From: an archaeon
Lineage (GTDB): Archaea > Thermoproteota > Nitrososphaeria > Conexivisphaerales > DTJL01
Length of the DNA: 42,682 bases
Assembly (NCBI GenBank): GCA_021811935.1
Contig: JAKAPW010000004.1
Span: 1-42,682 of the forward strand
Direction: 5' to 3'
The notes below the pieces were generated by a model. The model saw only the letters and a list, made by a program, of their open reading frames with translations, had not been told where the DNA came from and did not search any database. The number at the start of each line of letters is the position of its first letter. Position 1 is the stretch's first letter. Below, in pieces: positions 7,535 to 41,185 of the stretch. The translations under genes and the position numbers were made by a program.

Positions 7535-8719
7535 TCAGAACTCCTTCCACGTCCCCTTCACGACCCAGACCGGCTCCTCCGGGTCGAAGTATTCCTGCCC
7601 CTCCACCCTGTGTTCCTCCAGCACCCTTTCGTCCACGTCGACTCCCAGACCGGGGCGGTCCGGGGCGGAGGAATGGCCGCCGACCACTGGCGTGCCGTCG
7701 CGTATCAGCTCCCTCTTCCATTGGGGGAAGCAGTCGTAGAAGGACTCCTGGACCAGGAAGTTGGGGATGCAGGCGTCGACCTGCAGCGTGGCCGCGTTCT
7801 GGATGGGGCCGAAGGCGTTGTGGAAGGCCATCTCCACTCCGAACGCCTCGGCGACCGCCGCGACCTTGCGCGCCTGGGTGACGCCGCCTATGTTCGTTAT
7901 GTCAGCCTGGAGGAAGTCTGCGAGGCCGTCCCGCAGGGCCTGCAGCGCCTGCTCCTTCGTGAGCAGCCTCTCGCCCAGCGCCACCCTCAGGCGGGTGGCC
8001 GACCTGTACTTCTTCATCCCTTCGACGTTCTCCGGATGGACCGGCTCCTCCATGAAGAGCGGGTCGAACTCCTCGAGGGCATTCGCCGCCGCGATGGCGG
8101 AGTTCGGGTCGAAGCGCCCATGGTGCTCGATGAGGAGGTCCACCCTGCCGCCGGTGGCGTCCCTGACTGCCTTCACCCTGGCGTGCGCCTGTTCCAGCCC
8201 CGCCCGGTCGATGGAGTCGTAGTGGCTCCCGAACGGGTCGAACTTCAGGGCGGTGTAGCCCATCCCCGCATACTTCTTCGCCCTCCCGCCGAAGTCCTCC
8301 GGGGAGACGCAGCCGTCGTACCATCCGTTCGCATAGAGCCGTATCCTGTCCCGGAAAGTCCCGCCCATGAGCTTGTGTATGGGCGCGCCGTAGTGCTTGC
8401 CCATGATGTCCCAGCAGGCGATGTCGAACGCGCTCACCGCGGTGGTCGACTCGAAGGAGACGGGGAGATAGAAGTCGTGCCTGTGCCACTCGTGCCAGTT
8501 CCTTTCGACGTCCAGCGGGTCCTTCCCCCTGTAGACCCTGGCCACCTCGTGCAGCGACTGGATGACAGGCTGGACGCGGAGGGTGGGGACGGCCTCCCCC
8601 CACCCCACCAGCCCGTCGGATGTGGTGAGCCTGAGCAGGATGGAGTTCCCCGCCCACGTGGCCCCGCCGGCCGACGCGGGCTCTCCGACCTGAAAGACCT
8701 CCGCTTCTATTATCTTCAT
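7535..8719 (-). CDS. Mandelate racemase/muconate lactonizing enzyme family dehydratase (gluconate/galactonate dehydratase-like)
   Basis: 394 aa; AFDIACWDIMGKHYGAPIHKLMGG, ALKFDPFGSHY, LIEHHGRFDPNSAI, FMEEPVHPENVEGM, ALGERLLTKEQAL, QADITNIGGVTQARKVA. Confidence 0.9.
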   Translation of the reverse strand: MKIIEAEVFQVGEPASAGGATWAGNSILLRLTTSDGLVGWGEAVPTLRVQPVIQSLHEVARVYRGKDPLDVERNWHEWHRHDFYLPVSFESTTAVSAFDIACWDIMGKHYGAPIHKLMGGTFRDRIRLYANGWYDGCVSPEDFGGRAKKYAGMGYTALKFDPFGSHYDSIDRAGLEQAHARVKAVRDATGGRVDLLIEHHGRFDPNSAIAAANALEEFDPLFMEEPVHPENVEGMKKYRSATRLRVALGERLLTKEQALQALRDGLADFLQADITNIGGVTQARKVAAVAEAFGVEMAFHNAFGPIQNAATLQVDACIPNFLVQESFYDCFPQWKRELIRDGTPVVGGHSSAPDRPGLGVDVDERVLEEHRVEGQEYFDPEEPVWVVKGTWKEF

Positions 8720-8821
8720 GTCGCAGGTTAGGGCACCTTCACCCTAAAAAGGGCTTGGGCGAAACGTCACCGCGGTTGATGGTTGATATTTATTATACCC
8801 ATCTGATAGACCCGCAGAGGA

Positions 8822-10135
8822 ATGGAGAGCGAGAACATGGTGGTCGGAAGGGGGCAGGGCGAGCCCTCCGGTGGGGACAGGATAAGGAGCGTCAGGGGAA
8901 GGCAGGTGCTCGACTCCAGGGGGAACCCCACGGTCGAGGTGGACGTCGTCCTGGAGTCCGGGGCCTTCGGCAGGGGGGCGGTCCCCTCGGGGGCCTCGAC
9001 CGGCGCGCACGAGGCGCTGGAGCTGAGGGACGGCGACCCCGGGTCCTTCGGGGGGATGGGGGTCACGAAGGCCGTGAGGAACGTCAACCAGAGGCTCGCA
9101 CCCGAGCTGGTCGGCATGAGCTGCCTCAGGCAGCACGAAATCGACAGGCTCATGATAGAGATGGACGGGACGCCCAACAAGCAGAGGCTGGGCGCAAACG
9201 CGATACTGGGCGTCTCGATGGCTGCGGCCAGGGCGGCCGCGGCCCACCTCAGGGTGCCGCTGTACAGGCACCTAAGGGCGGACGCGAGGTACGCCCTCCC
9301 CCTGCCCATGATGAACATAGTGAACGGAGGGAAGCACGCCGGGAACGGCCTGGCGGTGCAGGAGTTCCTTGTCGAGCCTGTCTCCGCGTCCGGCTATTCC
9401 GAGGCGCTGCGGATGGGGGACGAGGTCTACCATTCGCTCAAGGGCGTCCTGAGGGAGAAGTACGGGGCCTCCGCCACCAACGTCGGCGACGAAGGGGGCT
9501 ACGCCCCCCCTCTGTCCAGGACGGAGGAGGCCCTGGACGCGGTGGTCCTGGCCGTGAAGAGGGCCGGCTATCAGGAGTCGGACGTCGCGCTGGGGATCGA
9601 CGCGGCCGCCTCCGGCTTCTTCGACGGGGAGGCGTACTCCATAGACGGGGGGAGGCTCTCCCCCAGGCAGCTGGAGGATTATTACGTGAAGCTGATCGAT
9701 TCGTACCCGATAAAGACGGTGGAGGATCCCTTCCACGAAGACTCGTACGAAGACTTCGCGGCTATGACCAGGCGGGTGGGCTCGAGGGTGAAGATAATAG
9801 GGGACGACATCTACGTGACCAACCACGCCAGGATAAAGAAGGGAGTCGACGAGCGCACCACGAACGCGGTCCTGATCAAGCTGAACCAGGTGGGGACCGT
9901 GACGGAAACGCTGCACGCCGTCAGGACGGCCGTCGAAGGGAGATGGATGGTCGTCGTCTCCCACCGCTCGGGGGAGACGGAGGACACGTTCATATCCCAC
10001 CTCGCCACGGCGGTGGGCAGCACCTTCATCAAGACGGGTGCGCCGGCAAGGGGGGAGAGGGTGGCCAAATACAACGAACTGCTCAGGATGGAGGAGGAGC
10101 TGGGCGCCGCGCTGTCACGCCCCTCCTTCGACTGA
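8822..10135 (+). CDS. eno: Enolase (phosphopyruvate hydratase)
   Basis: RGRQVLDSRGNPTVEVDV, GAVPSGASTGAHEALELRD, LPLPMMNIVNGGKHAGNGLAVQEFL, NVGDEGGYAPPL, TVEDPFHEDSYEDF, LIKLNQVGTVTETL, VSHRSGETEDTFISHLA. Confidence 0.97.
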   Translation: MESENMVVGRGQGEPSGGDRIRSVRGRQVLDSRGNPTVEVDVVLESGAFGRGAVPSGASTGAHEALELRDGDPGSFGGMGVTKAVRNVNQRLAPELVGMSCLRQHEIDRLMIEMDGTPNKQRLGANAILGVSMAAARAAAAHLRVPLYRHLRADARYALPLPMMNIVNGGKHAGNGLAVQEFLVEPVSASGYSEALRMGDEVYHSLKGVLREKYGASATNVGDEGGYAPPLSRTEEALDAVVLAVKRAGYQESDVALGIDAAASGFFDGEAYSIDGGRLSPRQLEDYYVKLIDSYPIKTVEDPFHEDSYEDFAAMTRRVGSRVKIIGDDIYVTNHARIKKGVDERTTNAVLIKLNQVGTVTETLHAVRTAVEGRWMVVVSHRSGETEDTFISHLATAVGSTFIKTGAPARGERVAKYNELLRMEEELGAALSRPSFD

Positions 10136-33324: not shown

Positions 33325-34431
33325 ATGACATATGTTATGGGCGCGTCCGGGCTCGGGCACTGGGTCCGAAGGCTGCAGATGACGCTCTCGGAACGGGAGA
33401 ACCAGCTGGCACTCCGGAAGGCGGTGGGCACCAAGAGCTACGCCGTCAGGAGGGATGAGCTGCAAAGGTACGGCATAGAGGAGCGGAACTACTTCAGCAT
33501 AGACCCCGGGGAGCCCCTCCCCGACGCGTTCTTCGACGGCCTCGACGTGGTCTACGTGGCCAGCCCGAACGAGTTCCACAAGGCGCAGACGCTGCAGGCG
33601 CTGGAGAAGGGGAAGGTCACCGTCACGGAGAAGGCGTTCGCCACCACCAGGGCCGAGTTCGAGGAGGTGGTCCGCGAGGCGAGGGCCAGGGGCAGGGACA
33701 GGGTCACCTTGGGCCTCCATTACGTGACCAAGACGCTGACGATGGAGCTCGGGAAGATGCTCCCTTCGCTCGTGAAGCGGTACGGAAAGGTGCAGTCCGT
33801 CGTCTCCACGTTCTTCGAGGAGGTGAGGGACGAGGATGCCCGCAGGGCATGGCTCTTCAAGCCGGAGAACGGGGGGGTGGCGATGGACTGGATACACCCG
33901 CTCTCCATAATATCCTATGTCATGAAGGCGGAAAGGTTCTCCCTGCAGGACTGCACGCCGTACGTCATACAGGAGTTCTATGACTCGGTGAACCCGACGG
34001 GGTACCACGGAAGGTTCGGCGTGAAGGGGAGGCATTTCTCCCAAGACGCGGTCGCGGTCGTGCGCGTGGGGAAGGGCGTGCGGGAGGCCCACAAGGTCTT
34101 CAAGGTCAGGCTCGAGGACGCCCAGGTGGAGCTCCTCTACATCAGCACCGACGACGAGTTCCTTACGGGCAGCAGGGGGAAGATGGTGATAACGGAGAAG
34201 GGGGGCAAGTCCACCACGGTGAGCCCGTCCGGCCCCCTTTCGTACGAGTTCATGATAGACGACATGCTCAGGATGCTGAAAGGCGGCGCCCCCATGCTCT
34301 CGCTGGAGGACATAACCAAGATATACGAACCCGAATGGCAGATACAGCGGGGGCTGGCGTCGGCGAAGCCCGTCCGCAAGAGGGACGAGATAGACGAGTT
34401 CGTCTCCGCCGGCCTGGCGGGCAGGCTATGA
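33325..34431 (+). CDS. Gfo/Idh/MocA-type oxidoreductase
   Basis: VMGASGLGHWVRRLQ, LDVVYVASPNEFHKAQTLQALEKGKVTVTEKAFATTRAEFEEVVREA (Rossmann NAD-binding pattern with EK motif); ATG 3 nt after the gnd stop, preceded by ggagaagg. Confidence 0.8.
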   Translation: MTYVMGASGLGHWVRRLQMTLSERENQLALRKAVGTKSYAVRRDELQRYGIEERNYFSIDPGEPLPDAFFDGLDVVYVASPNEFHKAQTLQALEKGKVTVTEKAFATTRAEFEEVVREARARGRDRVTLGLHYVTKTLTMELGKMLPSLVKRYGKVQSVVSTFFEEVRDEDARRAWLFKPENGGVAMDWIHPLSIISYVMKAERFSLQDCTPYVIQEFYDSVNPTGYHGRFGVKGRHFSQDAVAVVRVGKGVREAHKVFKVRLEDAQVELLYISTDDEFLTGSRGKMVITEKGGKSTTVSPSGPLSYEFMIDDMLRMLKGGAPMLSLEDITKIYEPEWQIQRGLASAKPVRKRDEIDEFVSAGLAGRL

Positions 34432-36768
34432 CGGGGGGGCCCGGTTCAGCAGCTGCCACACGTACTCCGGCGTCAGGGGGAGCCTTTCTATCACGGCGCC
34501 GTGCTGGGACAGTGCGTCCTCCACCGCGTTGACTATCGCCGGAGTGGAGGCTATCGAAGCCGCCTCGCCGATCCCCTTGACGCCGAGAGGGTTGGCGTCG
34601 GTCGGCGTCTCGGTGGTGTGCCACGACATCCCCGGCACGGACATCGCTGTGGGGATGCCGTAGTCCGCCAGGGTGGCCGTGAGCAGCTGTCCGCCTTCGT
34701 CGTAGGAGAGCTCCTCCATCAGGGCCTGGCCCAGCCCCTGCGCCATCCCGCCCATCACCTGCCCCTCCGCCAGCAGGGGGTTCAGTATACGTCCGCAGTC
34801 GTCCACGGCCACGTACTTCAGGACGTCGACCCGACCCGTCTCCCTGTCCACCTCCACCAGGCAGATGTGCGACCCGAACGGGAAGGTGTTGCTCTTCGGC
34901 ACGAACGCGGAGTACTCGAAGAGCGTGGGCTCCATCCCACGAGGGAGCCGGCCGGGGTCGTAGGCGGCCGAGGCGACCTCGGCGAAGGCCACGCTCTTTG
35001 ACCCCCTCGAGTGTACCCTTCCGTCCCTGAACTCGACGTCGGCGTCCGTGTCCATCATCCTGGCGGCTATCGCGGCCATCTTGTCCCTTATCCTCCTGGC
35101 GCAGACGAGCACCGCGCTGCCCCCCACCGCGGCCGAACGGCTTCCGGCCGTCACGGTGCCGTACGGGAGCGACGCCGTGTCGCCATACCTGACGTAGACG
35201 TCCGAGGCTTCGATGCCGAGCTCGTCCGCCGCGATCTGCGCGAAGGGGGTGGCGTGCCCCTGCCCGTGCGGGTTCCCTCCCGAGTTGACCACGACCTTCC
35301 CTTCCTCGGTCACGGCCACGGACGCCGTCTGGGGGAATGTCGGCCCGAAGCCGCACACCTCCACGTACGTCGCCACTCCGACGCCGAACAGCCTCCCCTG
35401 CTCCCGTCCCCTGCGCTGCAGGCCCCGGAGCCCTTCGTAGTCGGCGACCTCGACCGCCTTGCTCAGGTTCTTCTCGTAGTCGCCGCTGTCGTAGGTGAAC
35501 CTCTTGGTCACTATCTGGAACGGGAAGCGGTCGGCTGGGATGAAGTTGACCTGTCTCACCTTGACAGGGTCCAGCTTCAGCTTGCCGGCTATGACGTTCA
35601 TCGTCCTCTCTATCAGGTACGATGCCTCGGGGCGGCCCGCCCCCCTGTAGGCGTCGTGCGGCACCTTGTTGGTGAAGGCGCACTTCAGCTCCGCCTTTAT
35701 GGCCCCGAAGTCGTAGTTGCCGGAGCATATCTGCGGCGTGACCCTGGGACCGAAGACGGCCTCGCTCGTGGAGTAGGCCCCGGAGTCGGCCACGATGCTC
35801 ACCTTGAGCGCCAGGAGCCTGCCGTCCTTCCTGACCGCGGCTTCGACGCGCTGCACCTGCCCCCTTCCCTGGGTGGTTGTCAGGATGTTCTCCCTCCTGC
35901 TCTCGGTCCACTTGACCGGCCTGCGTAGCAAGATCGCGGCGAAGGAGACGACCACCTCCTCCGGATATGTGGAGATCTTCGAACCGAACGCACCGCCCAC
36001 GTCCGGGGAGACCACGCGCACGCTGGGCTTGGGGAGGCGGAGCATCCTGGCCAGCGTATCCCTGGCGGAAAAGGGGTCCTGGCAGCCCAGGTGGACGGTC
36101 AGGGCCCCCGTCCCGGGGTCGTAATGCGACAGGACGCCCCTCGGCTCCAGCGGCACCGGCGCTATCCGCTGGTTCAGGAAGCTGGCGGAGACGACCCGGT
36201 CGGCCTTGCCGAATATCTCGTCGAAGCCCGGGGTCTCTATGCTGTACTCGTACGCGAGGTTGTCACCCAGGTCGCCGTGCACCCTGGGGGAGCCCCTTTC
36301 CAGCGCCCTGACTGGGTCGGTCACCGCGGGGAGAGGGTCGTAGACCACCTCCACCAGTTCGGACGCGTCTTCGGCGGCCTGCCTGTCCGACGCCACCACG
36401 ACGGCCACGGCCTCCCCCTCGTAGTTGGCTTCCCCCTGCGCCAGGACGGGCCGCCTGGTGTACTTCACCTTCTGGTCGTCCTTTTCGGTGGGCATGTCCT
36501 CGACCTTCCCGGAGAGGTCCTCCTGCGTCATCGCCAGCAGGACGCCCGGGTGGGCCCTGGCCCCTGACGCGTCTATGGAGACTATCCTGGCGTGGGGGTG
36601 GGGGGACCTGACGAACGACGCCCACGCGGTCCCTTCCATCGTTACGTCGTCGAGGTATCTTCCGGCCCCCCTCAGGAACTTCGGGTCTTCGGCCCTCTTC
36701 ATCGGCCTGCCGACCAGTTCCCGCCTGCGGCTGACGGCCACCTGCGAAGTAGCGCTCACGATTATCAT
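34426..36768 (-). CDS. Xanthine dehydrogenase/aldehyde oxidoreductase family molybdopterin-binding large subunit
   Basis: GRPMKRAEDPKFLRGAGRYLDDV, SPDVGGAFGSKI, VPHDAYRGAGRPEASYLIERTMN, NPHGQGHATPFAQIAADELGI, DDCGRILNPLLAEGQVMGGMAQGLGQALMEE, NPLGVKGIGEAASIASTPAIVNAVEDAL. GTG at 36759 is an alternative leaderless start. Confidence 0.93.
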   Translation of the reverse strand: MIIVSATSQVAVSRRRELVGRPMKRAEDPKFLRGAGRYLDDVTMEGTAWASFVRSPHPHARIVSIDASGARAHPGVLLAMTQEDLSGKVEDMPTEKDDQKVKYTRRPVLAQGEANYEGEAVAVVVASDRQAAEDASELVEVVYDPLPAVTDPVRALERGSPRVHGDLGDNLAYEYSIETPGFDEIFGKADRVVSASFLNQRIAPVPLEPRGVLSHYDPGTGALTVHLGCQDPFSARDTLARMLRLPKPSVRVVSPDVGGAFGSKISTYPEEVVVSFAAILLRRPVKWTESRRENILTTTQGRGQVQRVEAAVRKDGRLLALKVSIVADSGAYSTSEAVFGPRVTPQICSGNYDFGAIKAELKCAFTNKVPHDAYRGAGRPEASYLIERTMNVIAGKLKLDPVKVRQVNFIPADRFPFQIVTKRFTYDSGDYEKNLSKAVEVADYEGLRGLQRRGREQGRLFGVGVATYVEVCGFGPTFPQTASVAVTEEGKVVVNSGGNPHGQGHATPFAQIAADELGIEASDVYVRYGDTASLPYGTVTAGSRSAAVGGSAVLVCARRIRDKMAAIAARMMDTDADVEFRDGRVHSRGSKSVAFAEVASAAYDPGRLPRGMEPTLFEYSAFVPKSNTFPFGSHICLVEVDRETGRVDVLKYVAVDDCGRILNPLLAEGQVMGGMAQGLGQALMEELSYDEGGQLLTATLADYGIPTAMSVPGMSWHTTETPTDANPLGVKGIGEAASIASTPAIVNAVEDALSQHGAVIERLPLTPEYVWQLLNRAPPS

Positions 36769-37254: not shown

Positions 37255-38007
37255 GTGACGGTTTCCGACGGCGGGCAGGAAGTGACAGGGACAAGGCGGC
37301 CGAAGCACCGATTCACCGCGGGTGACCTCCTTCCGTGCGAGCTTGTCGAGCCGAACTGGAGGCTGTGGAGCTTCGTAATCGTCTTGGCCGTCGGCTTCTG
37401 GGCGCTCTTCTCCTTTCCCGTACCTGAGGTCGGCGGCTACGTAGACCCCTTCTACAGCCCGACAATACTGATCCTGCCATTGCCCGGCCTCTACAGGCTG
37501 ACCTGCTACGCCTACAGGAAGGACTACAACAGGCATCTGTTCCACCACCCCCTCGGCTGCGGCAACGCGGAGAGACGGGAGAAGCACCGCTTCGCGTACA
37601 CGGGGGAAGGCAGCGCCTTCTTCAAACTTGAGAACCTGCACCGCTACTTCCTCTATGCCGGGATAGCCATACTCCCGTTCTTCTATTATGACTTCTATCA
37701 CTCTCTCATCTACACCGGCGTCTTCACCCTCAGGCTGGGCAGCCTGGTCCTCCTGGCCAACGCGCTGTTACTCACCGCATGGACCTTCTCGTGCCATGCG
37801 CTCAGGCATCTTACGGGAGGGAACATCGACTGCGATTCATGCGTGAGGGCGGGCGCCCTTCGAAGGTCCGTCTTCAATGCCCAGAGCAGATGGAACGAGC
37901 ACCATGAGGCGCTGGCGTGGATAAGCCTGCTGGCGATCTTCTTCACGGACATGTATCTGCGTGCGCTCCAGGCAGGCCTGCCGCTGGACTTCGTGTTCTT
38001 CAGGTGA
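37255..38007 (+). CDS. Putative succinate dehydrogenase membrane anchor/cytochrome b subunit (Sdh1-type)
   Basis: Multi-TM; PGLYRLTCYAYRKDYNRHLF, LENLHRYFLYAGIAIL, LTAWTFSCHALRHLTGGNIDC, WNEHHEALAWISLLAIFFTDMYLRAL; resembles the large anchor accompanying actinobacterial Sdh1; next to sdhAB. Confidence 0.72.
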   Translation: MTVSDGGQEVTGTRRPKHRFTAGDLLPCELVEPNWRLWSFVIVLAVGFWALFSFPVPEVGGYVDPFYSPTILILPLPGLYRLTCYAYRKDYNRHLFHHPLGCGNAERREKHRFAYTGEGSAFFKLENLHRYFLYAGIAILPFFYYDFYHSLIYTGVFTLRLGSLVLLANALLLTAWTFSCHALRHLTGGNIDCDSCVRAGALRRSVFNAQSRWNEHHEALAWISLLAIFFTDMYLRALQAGLPLDFVFFR

Positions 38008-38012
38008 ATGAC

Positions 38013-38183
38013 ATGAAGTGGCAGTTGCCGAAAGCCGCCCGTTACCCCCTGTTCCTGGGGGGGTTCGTGTCGATGATAGCCGGCGGGCTCGGGGCAAGGC
38101 TGGCTGGCGGGGGGGCTGAAATGGCCGCAGGCTTCGGAGGCGTGGGAATCGTTCTCCTGGCCCTGTCCGTCGCGCTGAAGTAG
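38013..38183 (+). CDS. Small membrane protein (56 aa), possible SDH accessory or anchor
   Basis: MKWQLPKAARYPLFLGGFVSMIAGGLGARLAGGGAEMAAGFGGVGIVLLALSVALK: two hydrophobic helices; starts 6 nt after the anchor gene. Confidence 0.6.
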   Translation: MKWQLPKAARYPLFLGGFVSMIAGGLGARLAGGGAEMAAGFGGVGIVLLALSVALK

Positions 38184-38190
38184 CCCCGGA

Positions 38191-38931
38191 CTACCTTCTC
38201 TTTTTCAGTTTCCTGTAGATCCAGACGAGGGGGTCATAGTGTTCGTCGACGACCCTCTCCTTTTCCGGTATGATCGCGTCGTCTGTGATGGCTATGTGCT
38301 CGGGGCAGACCTCCTGGCAACATTTCGTGACGTTGCAATACTCGAGCCCCCCCTCTTCCCTCAGGAATTTCGAGCGGTTCGACCCGTCCATCGGGTGCAT
38401 GTCAAACGACGCCGCCTTCGCCACCCACCTGGGGCCGATGTAGTCTGCGGCGTGCTCCCTTATTGCATGGCAGGCGTCCTGACATAGAAAGCATTCTATG
38501 CACTTCCGCAGTTCTCTTGAGCGCTCGACGTCCCCCTGATAGAACAGCCAAGGTCTCTTGGAGACACTACGAGGGGTGAACGGGGGGATGGCCCCCGCAG
38601 TGTCCCGGCTTGCCGTCGTGTCTGTCACCAGGTCCCTGATGAGAGGGAATGCCTTCATGGGCTCGACCGTCACCTCTCCGTCATACATGCCCAGGGACGT
38701 CTTGCACATGAGGTGTGGCGTTCCGTTTATTTCAACCGCGCAGGAACCACACCTTCCCGCCTTGCAGTTCCACCGCGCGGTAAGAGAGGAATCGAGGCGG
38801 CTCTGCACGTAATGGATAGCGTTCAGGACGACCATCCCCTCCTCGGCCGGCACGTCGAATGTGTCGTACCTGAAGGTGGTTGGGTCGTTCCCCGTCCCGC
38901 GGAATACGCGGAGCCTGACCGCTTTCGACAT
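38191..38931 (-). CDS. sdhB: Succinate dehydrogenase/fumarate reductase iron-sulfur subunit
   Basis: WNCKAGRCGSCAVEINGTPHLMC ([2Fe-2S]); CIECFLCQDACH; YCNVTKCCQEVCPEHIAITDDAIIPEKERVVDEHYDPLVW (Sdh1-type C-terminus). Confidence 0.95.
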   Translation of the reverse strand: MSKAVRLRVFRGTGNDPTTFRYDTFDVPAEEGMVVLNAIHYVQSRLDSSLTARWNCKAGRCGSCAVEINGTPHLMCKTSLGMYDGEVTVEPMKAFPLIRDLVTDTTASRDTAGAIPPFTPRSVSKRPWLFYQGDVERSRELRKCIECFLCQDACHAIREHAADYIGPRWVAKAASFDMHPMDGSNRSKFLREEGGLEYCNVTKCCQEVCPEHIAITDDAIIPEKERVVDEHYDPLVWIYRKLKKRR

Positions 38932-38933
38932 CT

Positions 38934-40703
38934 TCACCCACCCCTGAACAGTGACTCCAGCTCGGGCGGAGGCTTCTGCACAGGCATGAATTCGCACCCC
39001 ATGCCTCTCCCCTTCCTCCTGACTATGACATTCACCGTCCAGTGCGCGTCATCCCTGTCGGGGTAATCGGAACGGGTGTGGGCGCCCCTGCTCTCCTTTC
39101 TTTCTATCGCCGACCTGATTATCGCTTCGCAGACCAGGAGCATGTTCCAGGCCTGGATGGAGTCCACCCAGGACTGGTTGTAGGTCCTCCCTCCCTTCGC
39201 TTCCAGGTTCTTCGATTCCGCCGCAATGGCGAGCATCTCCTCGAGCCCCTTCGCGAGGCCTTCCCCGCTCCTGACTATCCCGACATATTTCCACATCACG
39301 GAAGCGATCTTCTCCTTGAGGGCAAACGGGTTCTGCCCACCCTTCACCTTGAACGGCGCCAGGAGACGGGCCATCTCGTCCCCGGCGTCGTACTCGGCCA
39401 CCCTGCCGGGCTGCGCGGTCCTGGCATATTCTGCGGCGGCGAGTCCGGCCCTGCGCCCGAAGACAAGGATATCGGCCAGCGAATTTCCCCCCAGCCTGTT
39501 TGCTCCGTGAAGGCCAGAAGCGGCCTCGCCGGCGGCGAACAGCCCGGGGACGGTCGACCTGCAGCTGTCCGGTTCCACCCTGATGCCGCCCATCTGGTAA
39601 TGCACGGTGGGTGCCACTTCCATCCTGTCTTTCGTTATGTCTATCCCGGCGAACTCGAGAAACTGGGAATACATGCTCGGCAGTTTCTTCTTGATGTAGT
39701 CTGCCCCCCTGCCCCTGATATCCAGGTAGACACCGCCGTTGCTGCTCCCCCTCCCTTCCACCATCTCGGTGTAGATCGATCTGGCAACCACGTCCCTTGC
39801 GGACAGCTCCATCCTCTTCGGGTCGTACTTCTCCATGAAACGCTCCCCGCTGGCGTTGGTCAGCATGCCGCCCTCTCCCCTGACCGCTTCGGTCACCAGC
39901 ATGCCCCTGACGCCTGCCGGCGAAATCATCCCCGTGGGGTGGAACTGGATCATTTCCATGTCCATGAGGTCGGCGCCGGCCCTGTATGCCAGCGCCGCAC
40001 CGTCTCCCGTGCTTTCGTAGGAGTTGGACGTGACCTCGTACACCCTGCCGCATCCCCCCGTGGCAATGATCACCGCCTTGCACCTGAACAGCAGGAACCC
40101 TCCCGTTCTGATGTTGATGCCGAACGCGCCCGAAACCCTTCCCGTCGCCGGGTCCTTGAAGACGCTGGTCACTTCCACATCGTCCATCACCGGTATCTTC
40201 CTCTTGAAGACCTGGTCCTGGAGCGTCCTGATCAACTCGAGCCCCGTCCTGTCCCCGATGTAACACAGCCTGCGGTACGTATGGGCTCCGAAGGGGCGCT
40301 GCATTATCTTGCCATACGCTGTTCTGTCGAAGAGCGCTCCGTATTCTTCGAGTTCATAGACCCTGTCGATGGCTTCCTTCGCAAGTATCTCTGCCATCCT
40401 CCAATTGCCCAAACGCTGACCTTCGACTATCGTGTCCCTGAGGTGCACCTGCCAGCTGTCGCCCGGGTCGACGTTGCCCAACGCCGCCGCTATGCCCCCT
40501 TCGGCCATCACGGTGTGCGCCTTCCCCAGGAGCGTCTTGCAGACAACAAGGGTACTGGCCCCAGCGTCGGAGGACTCGATCGCCGCCCTGAGGCCCGCGC
40601 CTCCGGAGCCCACTATCAGGACGTCGGCAGTCATTGTCTCGTATGACGCGTCGTCGGTGGCTACACCCTTGCCGGGGTGGCCCTTCGACCGAAACCCGGA
40701 CAA
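38934..40703 (-). CDS. sdhA: Succinate dehydrogenase/fumarate reductase flavoprotein subunit
   Basis: TADVLIVGSGGAGLRAAIESSDAGAS, LLGKAHTVMAEGGIAAALGN, FGAHTYRRLCYIGDRTGLELIRTLQDQ, QFHPTGMISPAGVRGMLVTEAVRGEGG, GLHGANRLGGNSLADILVFGRRAG. The start may be ATG 40634. Confidence 0.95.
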   Translation of the reverse strand: MSGFRSKGHPGKGVATDDASYETMTADVLIVGSGGAGLRAAIESSDAGASTLVVCKTLLGKAHTVMAEGGIAAALGNVDPGDSWQVHLRDTIVEGQRLGNWRMAEILAKEAIDRVYELEEYGALFDRTAYGKIMQRPFGAHTYRRLCYIGDRTGLELIRTLQDQVFKRKIPVMDDVEVTSVFKDPATGRVSGAFGINIRTGGFLLFRCKAVIIATGGCGRVYEVTSNSYESTGDGAALAYRAGADLMDMEMIQFHPTGMISPAGVRGMLVTEAVRGEGGMLTNASGERFMEKYDPKRMELSARDVVARSIYTEMVEGRGSSNGGVYLDIRGRGADYIKKKLPSMYSQFLEFAGIDITKDRMEVAPTVHYQMGGIRVEPDSCRSTVPGLFAAGEAASGLHGANRLGGNSLADILVFGRRAGLAAAEYARTAQPGRVAEYDAGDEMARLLAPFKVKGGQNPFALKEKIASVMWKYVGIVRSGEGLAKGLEEMLAIAAESKNLEAKGGRTYNQSWVDSIQAWNMLLVCEAIIRSAIERKESRGAHTRSDYPDRDDAHWTVNVIVRRKGRGMGCEFMPVQKPPPELESLFRGG

Positions 40704-40716
40704 ATTTCCTTCCCCC

Positions 40717-40965
40717 CTACGGGTCGACCATCATCGCCCTGAATATCTCCTCGACGAGCCCCTCCGGGGCGGCCAGAACATCCTGACCCTCCTTTTCCAC
40801 CCGATGGACGGCGACATATACATCCAGTATAACACGGATTATGTCCTTAAGACTGTGCCGTTTGCAGAAATAGGTGTTGAACGGGCCGCCCATCCATCCG
40901 TGGTCGTCGCATATCGGCCTGCCGCAGAAGGAGCACGAGCCACCGACGTCCCTTTCGCACCGCAC
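40717..40965 (-). CDS. Small zinc-finger-like protein upstream of sdhAB
   Basis: CERDVGGSCSFCGRPICDDHGWMGGPFNTYFCKRHSLKDIIRVILDVYVAVHRV: Cys/His spacing of a treble-clef/B-box-like finger; ends 13 nt before the sdhA ORF. GTG start inferred. Confidence 0.65.
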   Translation of the reverse strand: MRCERDVGGSCSFCGRPICDDHGWMGGPFNTYFCKRHSLKDIIRVILDVYVAVHRVEKEGQDVLAAPEGLVEEIFRAMMVDP

Positions 40966-41185
40966 ATAGGAGGAAGGGGCCAAAAGGGAATCTCCTGCAC
41001 ACCTCGCGCTGGGCCGACTATTGACCAAGCTCCGCCCACCACCTCGTCGTTCCGGAAGACACGCGACACCGCCCGATCATGATGGTGTGCTGGCAGGCAT
41101 AAAAGACAGAGCATGCAAAGAGGTGTATTTCCTGCGATTCGCACGCAGGTGCTGGCATCGCCGGCGTCGGCCTGGTTCCAGACGA

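Follow-up and report, generated by a model that had tools for sequence, protein, structure and literature searches.

The window, the whole stretch of 42,682 nucleotides that was analysed, holds a four-gene locus (37255 to 40703) that would encode a succinate:quinone oxidoreductase of an archaeal subtype of class F, with a Rieske-type membrane anchor and a small membrane protein as an obligatory fourth partner. We give this reading a probability of about 0.72. To our knowledge, class F succinate dehydrogenases are rare and their structure is known only from mycobacteria.

The catalytic subunits match class F complex II

The sdhA gene for the flavoprotein subunit lies on the minus strand at 38934..40703 and encodes 589 amino acids when counted from the TTG at 40703, the internal ATG at 40634 being the likelier start. 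The gene for the iron-sulfur subunit, sdhB (38191..38931, minus strand), begins with the ATG at 38931, 2 nt past the sdhA stop codon. Upstream of sdhA, a small Cys/His-rich ORF is found at 40717-41028 on the minus strand, with only sub-threshold matches to zinc fingers (AN1, C5HCH).

When the translated proteins were compared with the PDB sequences, SdhA matched best to 7d6v_A (9.5e-172; next entry 6.6e-116) and SdhB to 7d6v_B (2.4e-77; next entry 1e-26). The same single entry 7D6V, the Sdh1 of Mycobacterium smegmatis, was also the top match for the anchor. Since these matches are strong and all lead to 7D6V, the three genes are not chance open reading frames. SdhA contains the Pfam domains FAD_binding_2 and Succ_DH_flav_C, and its FAD-binding histidine motif KAHTVMAEGG and the motifs HYQMGGI and HGANRLGG align with 7d6v_A. 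Its match to the NCBIfam model PRK07803 (3e-220) stayed below the cut-off of the model. SdhB passed PRK12386, the NCBIfam model of the succinate dehydrogenase/fumarate reductase iron-sulfur protein, with 313.7 bits at a cut-off of 256.

A preliminary description of this DNA had likened SdhA and SdhB to mycobacterial Sdh1, and with 7D6V as the top match for both and PRK12386 passed by SdhB, this likeness holds. The motifs that it named for SdhA, SdhB and the anchor were all present in the window sequence and the ORF table. It had also pointed out an adjacent Cys-Cys pair in SdhB. The pair does exist, but since all 74 of the aligned class F SdhB proteins have it, it is a hallmark of the class and not an oddity. 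Judged by sequence, the locus can be firmly assigned to class F complex II of the Sdh1 type.

The membrane anchor and its conserved cysteines and histidines

The SdhC-like anchor gene lies on the plus strand at 37255..38007 and runs convergent to sdhAB. The idea that this large multi-spanning protein is a relative of the Sdh1 anchor was confirmed by sequence, with a match to 7d6v_C at 2e-25, and by fold. The AlphaFold2 model, which is of middling confidence (pLDDT 75), had 7d6v_C as its sole significant PDB neighbour (Foldseek E 3.8e-9, probability 1.0). The significant PDB matches, by sequence or by Foldseek, included no other complex II anchor and hence none of the SdhC/SdhD cytochrome b type; no family was matched in Pfam and NCBIfam.

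Conservation was analysed in 123 anchors, 38 from the archaeal clade and 85 of the bacterial type, together with 7d6v_C. C84, C102, H129 and H217 were invariant in 123/123, C180 was the same wherever it was read, and H181 was nearly invariant; all six residues are conserved across the window anchor, 7d6v_C and the other anchors. The helices of the model span residues 125-152, 161-178 and 217-239, and their ends carry H129, C180/H181 and H217. By the alternation of the helices, these ends would share one side of the membrane, which would fit a cluster site near SdhB.

According to a review (PMC10238741), class F complex II carries a Rieske Fe-S cluster, and a site of this kind requires both cysteines and histidines. 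From their conservation, the six anchor residues are candidates for the four ligands of such a [2Fe-2S] site. The histidines had instead been proposed as haem ligands. Conserved histidines do occur at helix ends (H129, H181, H185 and H217), but the anchor is homologous to a Rieske-bearing one, three conserved cysteines are present in the same protein and the class is assigned a Rieske cluster in that review. The haem proposal is therefore not supported and is very unlikely to be right.

A further set of residues stands out in the archaeal anchors. All 38 have H98 and a CxxC at 193/196, and nearly all have H94. About half of the bacterial-type anchors have the CxxC; the mycobacteria are without it. 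H94, H98, C193 and C196 possibly form a second metal site. Covariation of the positions 94/98 with the CxxC, which would hint at a shared metal site, was not observed in the bacterial-type anchors.

A small two-helix gene follows the archaeal anchors

An ORF that was absent from the preliminary description lies at 38013..38183 on the plus strand and encodes a protein of 56 amino acids with two transmembrane helices. It starts 5 bp after the stop codon of the anchor gene and ends 7 bp from that of sdhB, the gap between the convergent stop codons being 38184..38190. By sequence, the protein had no match in Pfam, NCBIfam or the PDB. AlphaFold2 predicted a two-helix hairpin (pLDDT 90), and in the fold search this was a plain helix hairpin without relatives. 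The related small proteins share the motif (R/K)YP(L/F)FxxG(L/V) and a second helix containing GF; their alignment revealed no conserved metal-binding or catalytic residues.

With a profile trained on many of these loci, the small gene was detected as the immediate downstream neighbour of the anchor gene, in the same orientation, in 38/38 archaeal-clade anchor loci, with 8-47 bp between the profile matches, and behind 0/85 bacterial-type anchors. The linkage holds where sdhAB lies elsewhere (L141, L147, L151, L241) and in other arrangements. Of the 400 genomes sampled from the window's class, 19 had the small protein, precisely those with an archaeal-type anchor, and it was found in 0/380 anchor-less genomes. 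The training of the profile accounts for part of the positives, but for neither the 380 negatives nor the strict position. The dN/dS values of six pairs were 0.04-0.21, and the small protein is under purifying selection.

The strict linkage of the two genes in the archaeal clade is well supported by these searches. Because the small gene follows every archaeal-clade anchor, co-occurs exactly with it in the 400 genomes and is under purifying selection, we propose that its product is probably an overlooked fourth subunit of the archaeal class F complex II, or a dedicated assembly partner. If it were only the latter, a membrane chaperone or an assembly or cluster-insertion factor for the anchor and not a stoichiometric subunit, one would expect a gene linked to the anchor gene and not to sdhAB, as is observed, and the bacterial class F structure 7D6V indeed does without such a subunit. 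However, with just two short helices and no conserved residues for metal binding or catalysis, the protein is of a kind that more often serves as a small subunit. This is not decisive, and we consider such a purely assisting role unlikely but worth keeping in mind. Operons can preserve close linkage, so an ordinary membrane protein might also hitchhike with the anchor gene and play no role in complex II. Such a passenger is highly improbable here, since the linkage outlasts several rearrangements, spans Nitrososphaeria, Thermoplasmata and Micrarchaeota/Nanoarchaeota-labelled loci and is matched by the exact co-occurrence with the archaeal-type anchor.

Gene orders at the class F loci

The preliminary description had correctly placed the anchor gene on the strand opposite to sdhAB and had regarded this as odd. 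The same layout, with sdhAB and the anchor-small pair converging, is common to 11 further Nitrososphaeria loci (L005, L006/L145, L140, L142, L143, L144, L146, L148, L149, L150 and L152) and is the commonest arrangement of class F loci in the Nitrososphaeria. Since one of them, L152, is in a single-contig genome, a misassembly or chimera as the source of the convergent anchor was ruled out. The order anchor-small-A-B was found at L007/L136/L137, L138 and L139, and the order A-B-anchor-small at L135 and at the Thermoplasmata and Micrarchaeota/Nanoarchaeota-labelled loci. At the four loci mentioned above, the anchor-small pair is separated from sdhAB. Bacteria and the bacterial-type Thermoplasmatota have the order anchor-A-B. 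The small gene and the A-B-C orders were only archaeal among the tabulated loci.

Two further arrangements were noted. In a Nitrososphaerales MAG (L010, 3085-5804), the class F sdhAB genes lie behind molybdopterin oxidoreductase-like and 4Fe-4S ferredoxin-like ORFs, and the anchor and the small gene are on another contig (L241). In two Thermoplasmata MAGs (L016, 4646-7921; L017, 6750-10019), the class F operon is immediately followed by another SDH locus, of the ordinary kind.

Distribution and phylogeny

When the genome collection was scanned, the first relatives to appear were from archaea (Thaumarchaeota, Micrarchaeota, Nanoarchaeota and Thermoplasmata MAGs), followed by many bacterial phyla. 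A class F anchor was present in 20/400 genomes of the window's class, in 1/300 genomes of its phylum, which was the window's own, and in 67/194 genomes of the phylum to which a Thermoplasmatales relative belongs. The twentieth anchor genome of the class, G314, has a bacterial-type anchor with the order anchor-A-B and no small gene (L153); this locus was either gained separately or stems from an error in binning. Class F complex II was absent from the genomes sampled in the window's genus, family and order, and the sampled relatives in the order had only ordinary SdhB of about 26-36% identity. No ordinary SdhB was found in the window genome, the assembly of which is 85% complete.

Trees of SdhA plus SdhB were calculated with IQ-TREE in quick mode, with SH-aLRT as the only branch support. 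A branch with an SH-aLRT of 100 had 26 of the 26 archaeal-clade rows on the same side. Under the root given by the outgroup, which is attached by a very long branch (about 4 changes per column each side), this group is not resolved as one clade. The window grouped with the Nitrososphaeria, Thermoplasmata and Micrarchaeota/Nanoarchaeota-labelled loci, apart from bacterial class F. M. smegmatis Sdh1 was deep among the bacteria, where the Actinomycetota were also found, and with the archaeal clade split off, the window does not belong to the actinobacterial Sdh1 lineage. An archaeal subtype of class F is well supported by this tree. Those Thermoplasmatota loci that lack the small gene (in L210-L224 and L242-L244) were nested on the bacterial side, which suggests that these bacterial-type loci were acquired from bacteria.

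The preliminary description had considered lateral transfer or an ancient shared type of SDH. That Sdh1 is known from mycobacteria, and that its presence here is patchy, with none in the sampled relatives up to the level of the order, would be in line with a recent gain from an actinobacterium. However, the archaeal/bacterial split and the position of Sdh1 among the bacteria do not support such a transfer into the window lineage. The window locus shares 71% identity with another Nitrososphaeria locus, and the restriction of the small gene and the A-B-C orders to archaea also argues against it. A recent actinobacterial origin is therefore extremely improbable, and the ancient shared type fits better. 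An exchange of class F complex II among archaea is plausible, because the SdhA proteins of Micrarchaeota and Parvarchaeota were reported to cluster with those of Thermoplasmatales or Caldisphaera (PMC5864196).

Proposed function of the complex

In the proposed four-partner enzyme, succinate would be oxidised at the FAD of SdhA and three Fe-S clusters in SdhB would relay the electrons. A putative Rieske-type [2Fe-2S] cluster on the conserved cysteines and histidines of the anchor would take them onward to a membrane quinone as the acceptor, which presumably feeds a terminal oxidase. The small protein is probably translated together with the anchor gene and would most likely bind to the complex as a small structural component that packs on the anchor; alternatively, it may help in the insertion of the anchor or in the loading of the cluster. 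Since a gene for a haem-copper oxidase is present in the window genome and no cytochrome bd was detected there, we expect that the enzyme works in the direction of aerobic succinate oxidation in this organism.

Elsewhere in the window, at 37-2620, 7538-10135 and 34429-36768, lie genes for an aldehyde dehydrogenase, an archaeal glucose dehydrogenase, an MR_MLE dehydratase-like protein, an enolase and a glyceraldehyde-dehydrogenase-like molybdenum subunit. These sugar genes suggest an archaeal Entner-Doudoroff pathway.

Interest in class F complex II comes from the Rieske cluster in its membrane part and from its value as a drug target in tuberculosis. In the open-licence papers found, it is described only for mycobacteria and their relatives, and titles on a membrane-embedded Rieske cluster were mainly on mycobacteria, with no archaeal one among the 12. 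An archaeal branch that is deep and probably has a fourth subunit would offer an independent comparison for the function of the Rieske and quinone sites, and a family of unannotated archaeal proteins of 55 amino acids would gain a likely role. Tentatively, at somewhat less than even odds, archaeal class F may be a distinct four-subunit family that combines a two-helix subunit, undescribed so far, with the invariant extra CxxC/His set of the anchor as a possible second metal site; it would perhaps also be the older branch that gave the three-subunit bacterial form.

Comparison with known systems

The ordinary SdhAB of other Nitrososphaeria have homologous catalytic subunits and the same expected enzyme function, but their SdhB is only about 26-36% identical to that of the window. 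A small extra membrane subunit is also known from class A complex II, where M. smegmatis Sdh2 (6LUM) has the single-pass SdhF (PMC10238741). However, the Sdh2 anchors bear haem and the SdhB belongs to another branch, and the small protein of the window had no sequence match among all PDB chains.

With M. smegmatis Sdh1 (7D6V/7D6X), the locus shares the best match for all three subunits, the anchor fold, the conserved cysteine and histidine set and the CC motif of SdhB. In contrast to Sdh1, it belongs to its own archaeal clade, has a convergent anchor gene and shorter loops in SdhA and the anchor, and adds the gene for the 56-residue two-helix protein, which has no counterpart in 7D6V. The window anchor also retains the CxxC (193/196), unlike the mycobacteria.

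A counterpart in a cultured isolate is the complex II of Cuniculiplasma divulgatum S5 (L212), which belongs to the same archaeal class F clade and has SdhA, SdhB, the anchor and the small gene, but in the order A-B-C-small on one strand. Four genes, CSP5_0486-0489, were assigned to this complex (PMC5155288), and a proteome study found its SDH subunits CSP5_0487 and 0486 among the expressed proteins (PMC7285479). In the available text of these two papers, there is no mention of class F or of any new small subunit for it. Since this isolate carries the same four genes, the proposal of a fourth subunit can be tested there.
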